Part shown: piece after piece, positions 1 to 8,738 of the stretch
Numbering within the stretch: position 1 is the first letter of the stretch
How the letters are laid out: the number at the start of each line of letters is the position of its first letter
Assembly: GCA_005116965.1 (NCBI GenBank)
Contig: SWDG01000027.1
Coordinates: forward strand, 426,432-490,431
DNA length: 64,000 bases
Reading direction: 5' to 3'
From: Nitrospira sp.
GTDB taxonomy: Bacteria; Nitrospirota; Nitrospiria; Nitrospirales; Nitrospiraceae
The notes under the pieces: generated by a model
The model's database searches: none
The model's input: the letters and a program-made list of their open reading frames with translations, nothing else
Told to the model about the DNA's origin: nothing
Program-made: the position numbers and the translations under genes

Positions 1-805
1 GAGCAAGGGGGCGTGTCGAACCATAGCCGATTACGGTAAACGGATTCGGAAGTCCATGACTGGTCAAATACTGCTTGACCGCTTCGGCACGGCGCCGACT
101 CAGTTGCATATTGTACTCCGCTTCGCCTCCCGCATCGGTATGGCCCGCGATTTCAATCGGCGTGTCGGGAGCTCTCCGTAAAAGCGTGATGATGTGATCG
201 AGCACCACCTGTCCTTTGGGCGTGATCGTCGCGCTCTTGGGTTCAAACTCGATCGAGGATTTTATCAGGACTTGGTTCAACAGCAGCTGGAGTGCCGACA
301 GAGGAACAGTAGCAGAAGACGATGCTGCCCTCGATGCTACCACCACACGGTCTTCAATTCGTAAGCCTGCTCGTATCACCGGAGCCAACGCCTGTAAGAT
401 CTCCGCCTTCTCACGATGACCGGCCACCTGACCGTTGACCAGCAGCGAACGTCCATCGATGATGATGGAGCCTCGCTCGACCATCACGCCCAAGACCGGC
501 AAGAGTTGCGGCACCATATCCACCCACGCCGCCGTCTTGACCTGCTGATCAACGGTAAACTGGTCGATCACACGCATGCGCGTTTTCGCAGCGAGCGCAT
601 GCGCCTGCTCAAGAATCATGGTCTTACTGCGTTCAGTGGGCAATGACCCGCGAAGGACCAAGCTGCCTTGCTCGACACTGATGTGAAGGCTGGCGGGAGT
701 CGCGATCAGGGACCGTGGCGGGGAGGAAAGGTGCCGAGGAAGGCACACCACGCCGAGAAGCATGAGCGCAACTGCCCCTCCGGTGAGAACCCCTGCACGT
801 CTCAT
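1..805 (-). CDS. OmpA-family protein with BON-like domains (3' end outside window)
   Basis: The visible 268 residues begin with a hydrophobic signal/anchor (about residues 8-22). Two BON-like alpha/beta modules follow (about 40-105 and 105-165), then an OmpA C-terminal peptidoglycan-binding domain (from about 183) with the hallmark IEFEPKSA strand, the EIAGHTDAGG turn and the NMQLSRRRAEAV helix. This order is that of BON-OmpA envelope proteins, which tie the outer membrane to peptidoglycan. The reading frame runs off the left edge at residue 268, probably only a few residues before the natural end. The ATG at 805 opens just before the hydrophobic segment; its ribosome-binding site is weak. 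A collapsed second copy of this gene lies at 3600-3810, on the far side of the coiled-coil gene. Family call is firm; the exact role is not known. Confidence 0.8.
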   Translation of the reverse strand, partial: MRRAGVLTGGAVALMLLGVVCLPRHLSSPPRSLIATPASLHISVEQGSLVLRGSLPTERSKTMILEQAHALAAKTRMRVIDQFTVDQQVKTAAWVDMVPQLLPVLGVMVERGSIIIDGRSLLVNGQVAGHREKAEILQALAPVIRAGLRIEDRVVVASRAASSSATVPLSALQLLLNQVLIKSSIEFEPKSATITPKGQVVLDHIITLLRRAPDTPIEIAGHTDAGGEAEYNMQLSRRRAEAVKQYLTSHGLPNPFTVIGYGSTRPLA

Positions 806-1030: not shown

Positions 1031-3529
1031 TTATAGCCGTTCCCCGTACTTTTGATAGTGTTGCTTCTTGGCGTCGGCGATCCATTTTTCCCGTTTGATG
1101 CGCTCAGGATCGGTCTCGAGTTTCTTGGCGATTTTCTCAATATCTTCTGGCTTCCAACGAGCAATTTGGATGAATGTATGAGTGCCCAGCTTGTGAAGCG
1201 TCTGTGCAATGGCTTGCCCAATCCCGTGAATCTTCTTGAGATCATCTTCCTGCTTGTTCTTGGTGACCTTAGGCTGTCCCGCTGAAGTGTTCGGTTCGGC
1301 TCCCTTCTGACGGGCCTCGCGAGGCCCCTCCTTTGTCGGGGCTGCCTTTGCCGGCACTGCTTTGTCACGAAGTGTCCCACGCAATTCTTTGAGACGTTGT
1401 TGCAGGCGATCGATCTGTTCATCCTTCCCAGGAATGCTTTGTACCGTTTGTGCGAGATTCTGACGTTCTGCTTGAAGATCTTGTAATTGACGGTTGAGAT
1501 TGGCCATCTGTTCGTCTCGTCCCTGCAGCTGTTGCTCATTGAGCAGCAGCTGCTCACGAAGGCGCTCCTGTGCTGCGCATTGTTCTTGGAGCTGGGCTAC
1601 TTCTGACTTATGTTCCTGAACCGTGCGTGCGTATTTCTTTTCCCACTCTTTAAGCTCTGTTCCCTTCTCACGGAGGAGGTTGGCGGTTGGCACGAGCTCT
1701 TCGATCCGACGATCTCGTTCCGCAAGGGTCTTTTCAATCTGCTTGAGGGTTCCCCGATGGGCCGCTTCTCGGTCACTTAGCTCAACCTCCAACTGATGGA
1801 CGCGGCCCTGTAGCGACTCCAGCTTCTTCAGGTGGGCGCGCAGGCGGTCCCGATCGGCAAGGCCTTCGTTGAGTTGGGCAATATGCTCGCGCAGCACCCG
1901 GATTTCCTCCTTCAAGACTTCCTGGGCTTGCTCGGCGGTTCGACTCGCTTGTTGCGCTTCGTGCAGTTTCTCCGTCTGAGCTGCCGCATTCGCATCGAAC
2001 TTACTGATCCGGCGATCACGTTCCGCAAGGGACTGTTCGAGCTGCTTGTTGGTTCCCCGATGCACGGCTTCTCGGTCACTCAATTCGACCTCGAGCTGAT
2101 GCACACGGCCCTGGACTGACTCCAGCTTCTTCAGCTGGGTGCGCAATCGGTCCCGATCAGCAAGGTCTTCGTTGAGTTGCGCGATACGGTTGTGCAGAAC
2201 CTGAATGTCTTCCTTCAACACTTCCTGGGCATGCTCGGCATCCTGATATGCCAGTTGGGCTACACGGATCTCGTCCAGCTGGGCCACCGCACTCCTATTG
2301 AGCTCACTGATCTGCCCATCCCGCTCCGCCAGCGACTGTTCGACCTGCTGGAGAGTGCCTCGATGGGCCGCTTCCCGGTCACTCAATTCAACCTCCAGCT
2401 GATGGACACGATCACGCACCTTGGCCAACTTCTCCACTTCAGCGCGCAGGCGGTCCCGATCGGCAAGGCCTTCGTTGAGTTGCGCGATATGGTCGCGCAG
2501 CACCCGATTTTCCTCTTTCAACACCTCCTGGGTGTGTTCGGCGGCCTGACAAGCCTGTTGGGCCCCACGAAGCTCATCCAGCTGAGCAATCGCACTCATA
2601 TTGAACTCACTGATTCGTCCATCGCGCTCCACAAGCGACTGTTCAAACTGCTGGAGCGCTCCCCGATGGACCACTTCCCGATTACTCAGTTCGACCTCCA
2701 GCTGATGCACGCGATCTTGTACTGAGGCCAACTTCTCCAGATGGGCACGCAGACGATCCCGATCGGCGAGGTCATTGTTGAGTTGGGCAATATGGTCGCG
2801 CAGCACCCGGATTTCCTCTTTCAACACTTCCTGAGTGTGCTCGGCGGCGTGACAAGCCTGTTGCGCCCCGCGAAGCTCATCAATCCGGGCGGCCATGTTG
2901 TGATCGAATTCACTAATCCGGTGGTTGCGCTCGACCAGAGACTGTTCGAACTGCTGGAGCGCCCCCCGATGAGCCGCCTCTCGATCACTCAGCTCGACCT
3001 CCAACTGATGGACGCGGTCTTGCACCGACTCAAGCTTCTCGACCCGGGCACGGAGGTGATCCCGATCGGCAAGGCCTTCATTGAGCTGGGTAATGTGCTC
3101 GCGTAGGACACGGACTTCTTCCTTCAGGACCTCGTGGGTTTGCTCGGCATTCTGACAAGCCTGTTGCGCTCCGCGGAGTTCGTTGGCCAGGGCGCCAATA
3201 GTCGCATTGAGATCACTCACGCGATGGCGTGCCGCAACTCCTTCAGCTTCCACGTCCGTCAGATGTTTCGATTGCGCCGCGACCTCTGCTTCGAGCGCCT
3301 TCACCCGCTCACTTCGCGCGGTGAGTTCTCGTTGGGTTGCGGTGGACTGCGTCTCGGACGACATGATCTTCTGTTCGAGCATCTGCATCGCTGCATTCTT
3401 GACCTTCAGCTCATGCGAGGTCGTTTCCAACGCCTGTTCCTTCGCCCGCAGTAAATTGGTGAGCTGCTGGCATTGCTGCTCGAACGAATCCTTAGAGCTC
3501 TGCTGCAACCATCTGTTCAGTGTACTCAT
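1031..3529 (-). CDS. Repeat coiled-coil protein with C-terminal helix-hairpin-helix domain
   Basis: This 832-aa protein is almost entirely predicted coiled coil. Residues about 117-621 are five tandem copies of a 101-residue unit, each with a VLKEE-type start, a QLNEGLADRDRL segment and a VHQLEVELSDRE segment, so the DNA carries five 303-bp repeats (about 1667-3181). A Lys/Pro/Ala-rich linker (about 715-758) leads to a C-terminal domain (about 760-832) with KKIHGIGQAIAQTLHKLG, a helix-hairpin-helix motif of the kind found in DNA-binding and scaffold proteins. There is no signal peptide, so it is probably cytoplasmic. It sits between the OmpA gene and the remnant of a second OmpA copy. The function is unknown; a structural or nucleoid-related scaffold is a guess from architecture only. 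Confidence 0.75.
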   Translation of the reverse strand: MSTLNRWLQQSSKDSFEQQCQQLTNLLRAKEQALETTSHELKVKNAAMQMLEQKIMSSETQSTATQRELTARSERVKALEAEVAAQSKHLTDVEAEGVAARHRVSDLNATIGALANELRGAQQACQNAEQTHEVLKEEVRVLREHITQLNEGLADRDHLRARVEKLESVQDRVHQLEVELSDREAAHRGALQQFEQSLVERNHRISEFDHNMAARIDELRGAQQACHAAEHTQEVLKEEIRVLRDHIAQLNNDLADRDRLRAHLEKLASVQDRVHQLEVELSNREVVHRGALQQFEQSLVERDGRISEFNMSAIAQLDELRGAQQACQAAEHTQEVLKEENRVLRDHIAQLNEGLADRDRLRAEVEKLAKVRDRVHQLEVELSDREAAHRGTLQQVEQSLAERDGQISELNRSAVAQLDEIRVAQLAYQDAEHAQEVLKEDIQVLHNRIAQLNEDLADRDRLRTQLKKLESVQGRVHQLEVELSDREAVHRGTNKQLEQSLAERDRRISKFDANAAAQTEKLHEAQQASRTAEQAQEVLKEEIRVLREHIAQLNEGLADRDRLRAHLKKLESLQGRVHQLEVELSDREAAHRGTLKQIEKTLAERDRRIEELVPTANLLREKGTELKEWEKKYARTVQEHKSEVAQLQEQCAAQERLREQLLLNEQQLQGRDEQMANLNRQLQDLQAERQNLAQTVQSIPGKDEQIDRLQQRLKELRGTLRDKAVPAKAAPTKEGPREARQKGAEPNTSAGQPKVTKNKQEDDLKKIHGIGQAIAQTLHKLGTHTFIQIARWKPEDIEKIAKKLETDPERIKREKWIADAKKQHYQKYGERL
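1667..3181 (-). repeat. Five tandem 303-bp coding repeats
   Basis: Five consecutive in-frame units of exactly 101 codons encode the coiled-coil rod of the gene at 1031-3529. The fifth unit has drifted at its end. The units remain clearly alike at the DNA level, so copy number could change by recombination. Confidence 0.85.
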
Positions 3530-3599: not shown

Positions 3600-3810
3600 T
3601 GAAGGCGGGTACATGCCGAACCATCACCGATTGCGGTCATCGGATTCGTGAGTCCGTTACTAGTCCGGCTCAGTTGCATATTGCACCCTGCACTTGGGAG
3701 AGAATCCCCACAGGCCTCATGAGCTCAGTCAGCTGACATGAATTAGGACCACTGGGGTTAGACGTGTGACGGTACCACATTTTATGATGCATGTACTAGG
3801 GTTAGATTTG
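3600..3810 (-). pseudogene. Collapsed remnant of a second OmpA/BON gene
   Basis: On the + strand, 3605-3690 matches the start of the window (the OmpA C-terminal coding region): shared blocks include GCCGAACCAT-like, CGGATTCG and CTCAGTTGCATATTG. About 36 nt between the ACTGGT-like and CTCAGTTG blocks are missing. From about 3700 the sequence instead matches the start-codon region and upstream flank of the same gene (compare 775-900: GAGAATCCCC, CTCATG, CACTGGG, TGTACTAGG, GGCCAGTC blocks). The two ends of a gene copy have therefore been joined after loss of the roughly 600-bp middle. Many substitutions show it is old. It cannot encode a product. Confidence 0.7.
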
Positions 3811-3862
3811 GCCAGTCGAGTGGGTCAAGCAAGAGGGTGCACAGGCTTTCTTTGCGGCTCGG

Positions 3863-7328: not shown

Positions 7329-8738
7329 TCCCACAATGATAATGTCCGGTTCTACCACAATAGAACTGTCCTCTATCTCGAGAGACTCTCGCCCCTTACC
7401 AGGAGGGCGGGATGATCAGAGAGGATAGGGTGACGATGAGTGGGAAGGAATTGCGGCGGGTGCATGTGATTCGGCAAGTGCTGGAGCACCGACTCACGCA
7501 GAAGGAAGCCAGCACCTTGTTGGGCGTGACCGATCGGCAGATCCGGCGTCTGACACGACGGGTGGACCAGGAAGGTGATCACGGTCTGGTGCATCGGGCG
7601 CGTGGCCGCCCCTCGAACCGGCGGATCTCAGAGGGACGAAAGACCACGATCCTCCAGCTCTACGAGACGCGGTATGGAGATTTCGGACCACCCTTGGCGA
7701 GCGAGCAGTTGACCGAGCGGCATGGGCGCACGCTCAGTGATGAAACGCTGCGGCGCTGGTTACGGGCACGGGGAATTGCGCATTTTTCACGCCGAAAGCG
7801 CCCACACCGTGCGTGGCGGGCACGGAAGGCTCACGTGGGGGAGTTGGTGCAGGTGGATGGCTCACACCATGACTGGTTCGAAGGACGCGGCCCACGGTGT
7901 GTTTTGCTGGCTTACATCGATGATGCCAGCAGTCGGGTCTTCGCGCGGTTCTATACCCATGAAGGCACGATTCCGGCGATGGACAGCTTTCAGCGCTACG
8001 TGCGGCGCTATGGACTGCCCCTGGCACTCTATACGGATCGGCATAGCACCTATCCGTCACCCGCCGCGCCGACGATCGAGGAACAGCTCGCCGGCGTGGA
8101 ACCAACGAGCCAGTTTGGGCGCGCCCTCCACGAGTTGGGAGTGGAGCTGATCGCGGCGCACTCGCCACAAGCCAAAGGCCGAGTGGAGCGGCTCTTTAAA
8201 ACGTTCCAAGATCGGCTGGTCAAAGAGCTCCGCCTGGCAAAGATTGCGACCCTCGCGGCCGCGAACCACTTTCTCGACGACTATCTGTCCCGGTATAACC
8301 GACGCTTTACGGTCCCACCCGCGCAGCCGACCGATCTGCATCGACCGTGTCCGGCTCGTGGAGCACTGGATCGCATCCTGTGCATCAAGACGACGCGGGT
8401 CCTCCGGCGCGATTGGACCGTGGCCCACAACGGGCATCTCTATCAGGTGCACACCAACGTGCGGGCGAGGCAGGTGGTCATGGAAGACCGGCTGGATGGG
8501 ACGCTGGGCCTGACGCATCGGGGCCACGTGCTCGCCGATCACCCGATCGCCGAACGTCCGGTGCGCCCGGCAGAACCGCGCTCGGTGTCCCGCCGGCACC
8601 GACCCGTCACACCGGCAAGGACGCATCCGTGGCGCAAACGGGTGCTGCCGCCACGCGAACTCCTCGCGGCAGCGGGCAGCACCTAAACCGGACAGTTCTA
8701 TTGTGGGAGGAAGCGGACATTTCTAAAGTGGGTTGACA
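7324..8738 (+). mobile_element. ISNCY-family (IS1202-like) insertion sequence
   Basis: A 1,415-bp element with imperfect terminal inverted repeats of about 47 bp. Both ends start TGT, share CCCAC, AATGTCCG and CACAATAGAACTGTCC blocks, and enclose a single intact transposase gene. It interrupts the 3' end of crcB on its left. On its right lies the 17-bp repeat shared with 6811-6827. Confidence 0.8.
7412..8686 (+). CDS. ISNCY-family DDE transposase
   Basis: A 424-aa transposase that cuts and joins the IS ends. An N-terminal helix-turn-helix region (about residues 10-60, MSGKELRR...LTQKEASTLLGVTDRQIRRL) would bind the ends. An RNase H-like core follows with candidate catalytic residues in VQVDGSHHDWF, LYTDRHSTY and AKGRVERLFKTFQ. 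The C-terminal region is basic. AGGAGG five bases before the ATG at 7412 fixes the start. The frame is full length with no internal stops, so the element could still be active. It closely follows the pattern of the IS1202 group of ISNCY. Confidence 0.88.
   Translation: MIREDRVTMSGKELRRVHVIRQVLEHRLTQKEASTLLGVTDRQIRRLTRRVDQEGDHGLVHRARGRPSNRRISEGRKTTILQLYETRYGDFGPPLASEQLTERHGRTLSDETLRRWLRARGIAHFSRRKRPHRAWRARKAHVGELVQVDGSHHDWFEGRGPRCVLLAYIDDASSRVFARFYTHEGTIPAMDSFQRYVRRYGLPLALYTDRHSTYPSPAAPTIEEQLAGVEPTSQFGRALHELGVELIAAHSPQAKGRVERLFKTFQDRLVKELRLAKIATLAAANHFLDDYLSRYNRRFTVPPAQPTDLHRPCPARGALDRILCIKTTRVLRRDWTVAHNGHLYQVHTNVRARQVVMEDRLDGTLGLTHRGHVLADHPIAERPVRPAEPRSVSRRHRPVTPARTHPWRKRVLPPRELLAAAGST

Follow-up and report, generated by a model that had tools for sequence, protein, structure and literature searches.

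We propose that a gene cassette of Nitrospira encodes a coiled-coil tether of adjustable length, anchored in the inner membrane, which reaches the nucleoid and is coupled to peptidoglycan, a reading to which we assign a probability of about 0.5. The Nitrospira cassette comprises rodA, a soluble rod; OmpA/BON, in which a TM helix is followed by BON-like and OmpA parts; and rodB, which carries an N-terminal membrane helix in front of repeats and a tip like those of rodA. The preliminary description had proposed a rod with a possible nucleic-acid-binding tip. That proposal fits the evidence, except that rodA is not a lone filament but has a membrane-anchored twin and an OmpA/BON partner.

Results

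Organization of the window

The window is the whole 64,000-nucleotide stretch of DNA that was analysed. Its first base directly follows an assembly gap of 100 N, and rodB lacks its 5′ part there. The features lie on the minus strand:

2..805 (-), OmpA/BON gene, encoding a hydrophobic helix at the N-terminus, a BON-like region and an OmpA domain
1031..3529 (-), rodA: soluble coiled-coil rod with C-terminal HhH tip, 832 aa, ATG start
1034..1246 (-), HhH (COG3743/H3TH-like) tip of rodA, aa 762-832, pI 9.6
1247..1363 (-), basic, low-confidence linker of rodA, about aa 723-761 (aa 722-761: pI 9.87)
1364..1690 (-), non-repeat coiled coil of rodA, aa 614-722
1691..3205 (-), five tandem 101-aa (303-nt) coiled-coil repeats, aa 109-613
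3206..3529 (-), N-terminal segment of rodA, aa 1-108, aligning to the rodB start
3614..3686 (-), scar: decayed remnant of the 3′ end of an upstream ompA copy since lost, matching intact ompA in 41/52 and 20/22 nt
3775..3823 (-), scar: duplicate of the region upstream of ompA, 38/49 nt

The OmpA/BON gene is open at the window edge, its 3′ end being lost to the gap just outside. The envelope gene that had been noted beside rodA was confirmed in its OmpA part (PF00691, aa 197-277, 74 bits against a gathering score of 27.2), whereas BON (PF04972) stayed under its cut-off (17.7 against 27 bits). With its TM helix, BON-like region and OmpA domain, the neighbour resembles ArfA/OmpATb-type proteins, but it reaches only 39.1 bits against the cut-off of 81 of that model (NF051434) and is here paired with HhH rods. 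It probably binds peptidoglycan; the Asp of the presumed binding stretch is replaced at two loci (L045 and L056).

The C-terminal tip

The helix-hairpin-helix cap held up as a C-terminal HhH/COG3743-type domain at aa 762-832. The Pfam models HHH_5, Cdd1 and IMS_HHH matched it weakly, under their gathering scores: HHH_5 (PF14520, 27 bits) gave 18.2 bits with whole rodA and 22.4 bits with the tip alone, and 29.6 bits with a whole triple-tip protein from a second Nitrospira locus (L124). The tip clearly matched the C-terminal stretches of the NCBIfam PhaH, NuoE, L21 and S2 models, in all cases under the cut-offs. The PhaH model (NF045508) was matched with E 2.7e-12 at profile positions 138-230 of 234, in its C-terminal HhH domain; the match is confined to aa 729-822 and scores 47.3 bits against a whole-protein cut-off of 250 bits. 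Among PDB sequences, the tip matched protein-O from Dinoroseobacter shibae (RC-LH1 complex, PDB 8YY9) with E 1.2e-9 and a subunit of complex I with E 1.7e-7. Judged by sequence, the tip is a member of a mobile domain already known from PhaH and protein-O, so the initial view of an unfamiliar architecture does not hold for the tip; for the cassette it does, as we found no description of an OmpA/BON and HhH-rod cassette in the open-licence literature searched.

PhaH, a phasin of Caulobacter crescentus, is reported in a review (PMC13052382) to bind DNA non-specifically via its HhH domain and to position PHB granules along the nucleoid, the domain thus holding something at the nucleoid. The hairpin G-x-G is retained in 13 of 14 aligned tips (L013 has GIN), and both the tip and the N-terminal segment are under strong purifying selection (tip dN/dS 0.012-0.136 over 11 pairs, and 0.03-0.14 across 7 rodA pairs). 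We infer that the rodA and rodB tips bind DNA non-specifically. The tip reached a pLDDT of only about 58-76 in the AlphaFold2 (AF2) model, and a Foldseek search of the C-terminal AF2 model against PDB returned a single meaningless match (E 9.7). This uninformative search, the low confidence of the modelled tip and the sub-threshold Pfam scores of rodA count against the tether, as does the tip-type tail of the L21/S2 and NuoE models, for which DNA binding has no obvious need.

Possible, though on the doubtful side, is an envelope or cytoskeletal scaffold in which rod bundles attached to the membrane would use the HhH-fold tip to bind protein, such as the ribosome, complex I or another tip. Tip-type tails on the L21, S2 and NuoE models and on the reaction-centre protein-O, that is, on ribosomal and membrane complexes, argue for it, as do the low Pfam scores and the long coils typical of scaffolds. 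Against it stand the basic tip and linker (pI 9.6 and 9.9), the retained G-x-G hairpin and PhaH itself, the one relative found with a described role, which the review reports as DNA-binding (PMC13052382). Crescentin-like scaffolds share the long coiled coil, and the coil of one relative (L113) matches Rod_CreS with E 0.0014, at 18.2 bits against a cut-off of 100; they differ from the cassette in its rodB membrane helix, HhH tip and tandem 101-aa units.

We consider it improbable that soluble rodA works as PhaH does, coating storage granules (PHB, glycogen or polyphosphate) or linking them to the nucleoid. The homology of the tip to PhaH speaks for such a role, but the match is restricted to the tip region and far under the model cut-off, and the OmpA/BON pairing and the membrane-anchored paralogue do not suit granules. 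PhaH itself is a short granule-binding phasin and differs from the cassette with its long coiled-coil rods.

The 101-residue repeats and the coiled coil

The five repeats lie in exact register, with start-to-start distances of 303 nt in all four steps, a constancy that had been pointed out and is far beyond chance. They had also been called near-perfect, which overstates their likeness: the 101-aa units share 62-78% protein identity (mean 70%; shuffled mean 9%, maximum 19%), and at the DNA level the remaining four units are 74-76% identical to the reference copy. Tandem Repeats Finder likewise detected the array (4.8 copies, 77% matches). Across the rod ORFs, unit spacing is exactly 101 in 87 of 92 measured cases, and unit number differs between genomes, full-length rodA having 3-7 and rodB 1-4 (40 rod ORFs without N, of which 28 were taken as full length and 12 split or cut ones excluded). 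Of 105 units, 35 have their nearest counterpart within their own gene, indicating that arrays are partly homogenised within a gene; three loci were dropped from this comparison and from that of the scars (L049 and L051, which share contigs with L010 and L009, and L007, a near copy of L006). Relatives from other genera have one 101-aa unit or none recognisable. The multiple 101-aa repeats are an expansion seen in Nitrospira.

The hydrophobic residues of rodA recur most strongly every 3.48 residues (101/29), at a power of 7.2, against at most 2.3 in residue shuffles. Since tandem repetition by itself makes a peak of this kind sharper, a second control permuted the 101 columns identically in the five units, and none of 1000 permutations reached the observed power (maximum 6.45). 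rodA thus has the heptad-like hydrophobic periodicity of a coiled-coil cytoskeletal filament. AF2 yields long helices, in keeping with the rod proposed earlier; the full-length model has a low pTM (0.21), and only its helix content and breaks were used. The breaks, at about residues 150, 252, 353 and 551, fall on an LNEGLADRD-type stretch in 4 of 5 repeats, which suggests a hinge there in the model.

Several domain matches to the coil were set aside. MWFE (36 against 27 bits) and LytTR (23.5 against 22.6 bits) passed for the whole protein, but no single stretch passes alone, and we therefore rejected both as sums over the repeats. GAS, BAR and further Pfam matches on the rodA coil were all under cut-off, and the similarity to SMC/Rad50 is one of coil only (SMC_prok_B, 61.8 bits against a cut-off of 567).

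The array could also be a neutral by-product of slippage in an ordinary coiled-coil protein, its length having no function. Frequent changes in repeat number and the partial homogenisation of arrays fit this explanation, to which we give little credence: the unit length of 101 is kept in nearly all spacings, preserving the coil phase, and selection is strongly purifying on the parts tested, namely the N-terminal segment and the tip.

Membrane anchor, partner gene and origin of rodA

In four other genera of the family, an OmpA/BON gene lies directly upstream of a TM-coil-HhH gene at 21 of 21 loci, the two separated by a 4-nt gap or overlapping by 4 nt. OmpA/BON is a conserved partner of the rods and not a coincidental neighbour, and the two-gene pair looks like the ancestral unit. 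A scan for sigma-70-like promoters found none on the operon strand and 3 sites on the plus strand, opposite to the cassette (shuffles average 1.4), and a terminator scan found 1 (shuffles 4.0); neither therefore supports an operon.

In all 9 aligned rows, of which 8 are distinct, positive charges are absent from the N side of the rodB anchor and number 2-4 on its C side, and the rod is probably cytoplasmic. The C side also carries 2-3 negative charges. Conserved Cys residues in OmpA/BON and rodB (Cys11) lie at the presumed periplasmic end of each membrane helix, and the rodB helix has a packing pattern, A15-x3-G19-x3-G23; the two proteins may be in contact. ComEA-type HhH proteins are periplasmic and membrane-anchored, and a rod outside the inner membrane that captures DNA with its tip beside OmpA/BON would also have one N-terminal helix and an OmpA/BON partner, but this is very unlikely, given the positive charges after the rodB helix, the lack of a hydrophobic export signal in rodA despite its rodB-type repeats and tip, and the cytoplasmic nature of PhaH, NuoE, L21 and S2.

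rodA has no strongly hydrophobic stretch (maximum Kyte-Doolittle 0.42, 19-residue window) and aligns to the rodB start with one in-frame 54-nt (18-residue) gap in place of the membrane helix. This alignment holds in 5 of 5 rodA rows and, at the DNA level, in three genomes. Of 13 further loci that have both rodA and ompA, 10 show matches similar to the ompA 3′ scar; among 100 shuffled upstream regions, none does. The ORF in the window thus looks like a soluble duplicate of the membrane-anchored rod. The C-terminal regions of rodA and rodB do not form two clean clades, and conversion between the genes, or several origins, is therefore possible.

Distribution

OmpA/BON (E<=1e-20) is present in 32 of the 79 genus genomes and the rodB anchor (E<=4e-10) in 31 of exactly those; the 32nd is the source genome, which lacks the 5′ end of rodB at the gap. 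Anchor matches in two genomes (G065 and G079; E 6-9e-4, each with an internal TAG) were treated as noise. The HhH domain is present in 44 genomes and lacking in 35, so that the system is dispensable. Twelve of the 44 possess the tip but neither OmpA/BON nor the anchor, and OmpA/BON is absent from all 35 genomes that lack the domain; these counts come from related, and so not independent, genomes. The soluble rod stands alone at three loci (L054, L057 and L128).

A second Nitrospira locus has a similar pair, with an OmpA ORF at 6 of 7 loci examined and an unbroken TM-HhHx2-3 ORF at 4 of 7. On a Rhizobium lusitanum plasmid, a single gene encodes BON (50.3 bits, PF04972), BON-like and OmpA domains, and 11 nt after it lies a partner with three hydrophobic segments and two tips; the OmpA helix lacks Cys there, and the membrane part of the partner differs from rodB.

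Discussion

In the tether that we propose, the N-terminal helix of rodB would sit in the inner membrane and direct the rod into the cytoplasm, where the basic HhH domain at its end would grip DNA non-specifically, as reported for the related PhaH domain. The TM-BON-OmpA protein would fix that membrane spot to peptidoglycan. rodA would co-assemble through the common repeats, extending or cross-linking rods away from the membrane, and gain or loss of 101-residue units would adjust rod length while preserving the coiled-coil register. Further points weigh against this proposal: the system is dispensable, some genomes have tips or soluble rods but no partner, the C side of the rodB helix also bears negative charges, the OmpA Asp is replaced at two loci, the Rhizobium pair deviates in Cys and membrane part, the rodA and rodB C-terminal regions are intermingled, and the operon strand yielded no promoter hit in the scan.

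Protein-O offers a partial parallel, with N-terminal membrane helices, a flexible linker and a C-terminal domain homologous to the tip. It differs in having two helices within a photosynthetic complex and a gene between nuoE and nuoF rather than beside an OmpA gene; section 8 of the source (PMC12079452) mentions no coiled coil, and the C-terminal domain was not resolved in the structure. In that section, the authors call the function of such domains obscure.

A more specific and more tentative version is a wall-to-nucleoid linker, loosely comparable to the bridges of the eukaryotic nuclear envelope. Peptidoglycan-bound OmpA/BON would be joined in the inner membrane, via helix packing and perhaps a disulphide between the conserved cysteines, to a DNA-gripping cytoplasmic rod tuned in length by 101-residue units; its soluble twin would have arisen by deletion of the membrane helix only. 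Because a similar pair occurs in Rhizobium, the form with two genes would predate Nitrospira and extend beyond it.

To our knowledge, the fixation of the chromosome to the envelope in non-model bacteria is a largely open question, and the cassette may provide such a link. By pairing a probable peptidoglycan binder with a tip-bearing membrane rod in a conserved arrangement, it offers a testable context for an obscure domain. The soluble and anchored twins have the repeats and tip in common, their N-termini being distinguished mainly by the membrane helix, and the natural variants in rod length form a ready experimental series.

A tandem-repeat rod beside an envelope gene

The following open reading frames lie in the window.

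1031-3529, minus strand: rodA, 832 residues, a soluble coiled-coil rod with a C-terminal helix-hairpin-helix (HhH) tip
7412-8686, plus strand: open reading frame of 424 residues with the look, by eye, of an integrase-type transposase

The preliminary description reported a repeat-built coiled-coil rod, and this feature is real. Residues 109-613 of rodA consist of five 101-residue repeats in exact register, pairs of which share 62-78% protein identity (mean 70%; shuffled control: mean 9%, maximum 19%). The hydrophobic periodicity is 3.48 positions, or 29 turns per 101 residues, the pattern of a left-handed coiled coil, and this peak exceeds residue shuffles and every one of 1000 permutations in which columns were shuffled with the tandem structure left intact. 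Beyond the repeats, a further coil extends to approximately residue 722 and leads into a linker and a C-terminal domain, both of them basic; a strongly hydrophobic stretch is absent. From helix geometry (approximately 0.15 nm per residue), we estimate the helical part to be approximately 105 nm long. Ten related loci in the named genome collection share 62-84% identity (best segment) and belong to metagenome-assembled genomes titled Nitrospira (eight), Nitrospiraceae (one) and Nitrospirae (one), which makes the host a Nitrospira.

Gene order and distribution of the cassette

The first base of the window is the first base past a 100-N scaffold gap (G000:C12:426332-426431) that adjoins the rod genes, and a second rod gene of 67% identity lies beyond it. 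In relatives with a complete locus, the gene order is rodA, OmpA/BON (encoding a TM-BON-OmpA protein) and rodB, often then dnaE. Both ends of the OmpA/BON-rodB junction are visible at 21 loci, two of them duplicates; the spacing is 14 nt at 15 and 3 nt at 6. The N-terminus of rodB is a membrane helix, the anchor (MITLMSQMVGCLLIAAGIGLAVGWLLRGLPK in locus L043), and the remainder comprises repeats and a tip like those of rodA.

Runs of N also occur at other rod loci (L050, L051, L053, L056, L005, L009 and L013), and rod reading frames are split by frame breaks in L011 and L012; therefore, deposited rod lengths need care. At L012:9673-13857 (MAG RSF5), rodB continues in frame into DnaE, the membrane helix and repeats standing in place of the tip and the first ~120 DnaE residues. 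Genome G067 (G067:C31) has a 1395-residue open frame at the same rodB-DnaE place, and the first 400 DnaE residues used as a query match this genome at one place only, starting at residue 124. An assembly misjoin within the repeats is the likelier cause of these fused frames.

The genomes are related, so the following counts are not independent events: a tip profile is positive in 44/79 genus genomes and in 34/198 phylum genomes, all of one family (13 belong to the genus and 21 to four other genera). No tip protein was found at E<=1e-4 in 35 of the 79 genus genomes (e.g., G021, G060, G090 and G094), some of which are rated 99% complete. The OmpA/BON gene occurs in 32/79, and exactly 31 of these 32 carry the anchor, the exception being the gapped genome studied here; 12 genus genomes have the tip with neither OmpA/BON nor the anchor. 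A lone soluble rod lies upstream of dnaE in L054, L057 and L128.

All 21 loci outside the genus were fetched (L136 is cut by a contig end; the other 20 are complete). In every one, the gene directly after OmpA/BON encodes the tip protein, which has the same type of N-terminal membrane helix. The 20 complete proteins are 413-444 residues long. Scanned with a profile of the 101-residue unit, nine of the 21 show a single copy and the other 12 show none; thus, only the genus shows the tandem array. Loci L111 and L112 hold a second OmpA/BON-like gene close to the OmpA/BON and TM-coil-HhH pair.

Origin and length variation of the rods

Upstream of rodA in the window lie ompA remnants in order: 41/52 and 20/22 nt of the 3′ end and 38/49 nt of the upstream region. 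A match to the ompA region (E<=1e-3) lies within the 700 bases ahead of rodA in 10 of the 13 other loci that have both genes; L047, L048 and L013 show none, nor do the three solo rods, and 100 block-shuffled upstreams gave none. In three genomes, the aligned starts of rodA and rodB, with start codons matched, differ by a single in-frame 54-nt gap that deletes 18 membrane-helix residues, a gap common to all five rodA rows. Because of these remnants and this gap, rodA would most simply have arisen by tandem duplication of ompA-rodB, after which the first ompA decayed and the anchor was cleanly lost. In a tree of the C-terminal region, all 31 Nitrospira rod rows form one group (100/99), within which rodA and rodB are not cleanly separated (four changes each, at least two forced). 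This mixing points to conversion between the copies or a more complex history.

Rod length was compared in 28 full-length rods (19 rodA and nine rodB, including two L049 rods that duplicate those of L010), in which rodA has 3-7 units (641-1129 residues) and rodB 1-4 units (442-699 residues). Unit spacing, measured on a single motif in 27 rods of this set, is 101 in 87/92 cases and otherwise 105 (three) or 87 (two). The nearest relative of a unit lies in its own gene for 35/105 and in another genome for 70/105; homogenisation is seen in the rodA arrays of L043 and L044, where nt identity inside the gene is 0.87-0.89.

The tip and similar gene pairs

The last 71 residues of rodA match C-terminal stretches of the PhaH, NuoE, L21 and S2 models (NCBIfam), each below its whole-protein cut-off, and in PDB they match one chain of reaction-centre protein-O and one complex I subunit. 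Pfam HhH models match this tip weakly, under cut-offs. Strong purifying selection acts on the tip, with dN/dS of 0.012-0.136 over 11 pairs; the N-terminal segment gives 0.058-0.255. According to a review, PhaH, PhaM and PhaF attach to PHB granules and, without sequence specificity, to DNA, for which PhaH depends on its HhH domain (PMC13052382). On protein-O, another source describes a membrane domain at the N-terminus, then a flexible loop and a NuoE-like C-terminal domain, and calls the function of these domains obscure (PMC12079452). As described there, protein-O resembles rodB in having its membrane part at the N-terminus and a tip-type domain at the C-terminus.

At a second Nitrospira locus, a short OmpA protein is encoded together with a TM-coil-HhHx2-3 protein; the three-tip protein of its L124 copy passes the HHH_5 cut-off. 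The OmpA reading frame is present in 6/7 fetched loci, and the seventh, L059, shows only its N-terminal part. The tip protein is an unbroken frame with the helix in 4/7 (L124, L125, L126 and L129); N interrupts it in L058, and in L059 and L127 it and its helix seem to be in different frames. Locus L059 (G034:C124) keeps the N-terminal membrane part and a proline-rich stretch before the three-tip protein, and the OmpA domain seems to have been lost.

Searched by tblastn, the tips matched 7, 7 and 8 records of a plasmid collection, largely identical sets, and three regions were opened. In the Rhizobium lusitanum region (L137), one gene combines BON, BON-like and OmpA domains, and 11 nt after it comes a two-tip protein with three hydrophobic segments. 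The pair is not seen in L138, with NuoE-type and protein-O-like genes, or in L139, with an S2 protein carrying the tail (both by eye). One of the three opened regions therefore supports the pair outside Nitrospirota.

Topology and a putative tether

The rodB helix is preceded by no positive charges and followed by 2-4 in 9/9 rows (eight distinct), with 2-3 negative charges alongside. By the positive-inside rule, the rodB rod probably sits in the cytoplasm, which fits the lack of an export signal in rodA. The OmpA/BON protein of the window begins with an MRR-helix, which would place its OmpA domain outside. Its HTD...LSRRRA stretch resembles the peptidoglycan-binding residues of OmpA domains, although L045 and L056 have another residue in place of the Asp.

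Both helices carry a cysteine near the presumed periplasmic end. With patterns not requiring Cys, rodB Cys11 is present in 17/17 main-locus and 20/20 other-genus matches (four main and one other-genus loci were unmatched), and the OmpA/BON cysteine is present in 21/21 other-genus loci; the latter was also present in all 21 main loci inspected. Of the unmatched loci, L110 is one residue shorter and keeps its cysteine. At the second locus, both partners have it in the rows shown, the tip-protein pattern itself requiring Cys; it was not seen in the Rhizobium OmpA. Alternatively, the OmpA/BON cysteine could be a lipoprotein site; however, a usual lipobox has G, A or S directly before the cysteine, and the preceding residue was none of these in the rows seen.

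Our data suggest a membrane pair that links the wall to the rod, with the tip on DNA and rodA as an extender or cross-linker. OmpA/BON and rodB would form a membrane-embedded pair joining wall and rod, the tip would hold DNA at the rod end, and rodA would add length or cross-link to rods. We give a moderate chance to the cassette being a wall-to-nucleoid tether, for which we infer the DNA, topology, wall and contact steps. The direction of the preliminary description, a scaffold or DNA-organising filament, was well guessed; what the analysis adds is that rodA belongs to a conserved envelope cassette whose evolutionary history can be read.
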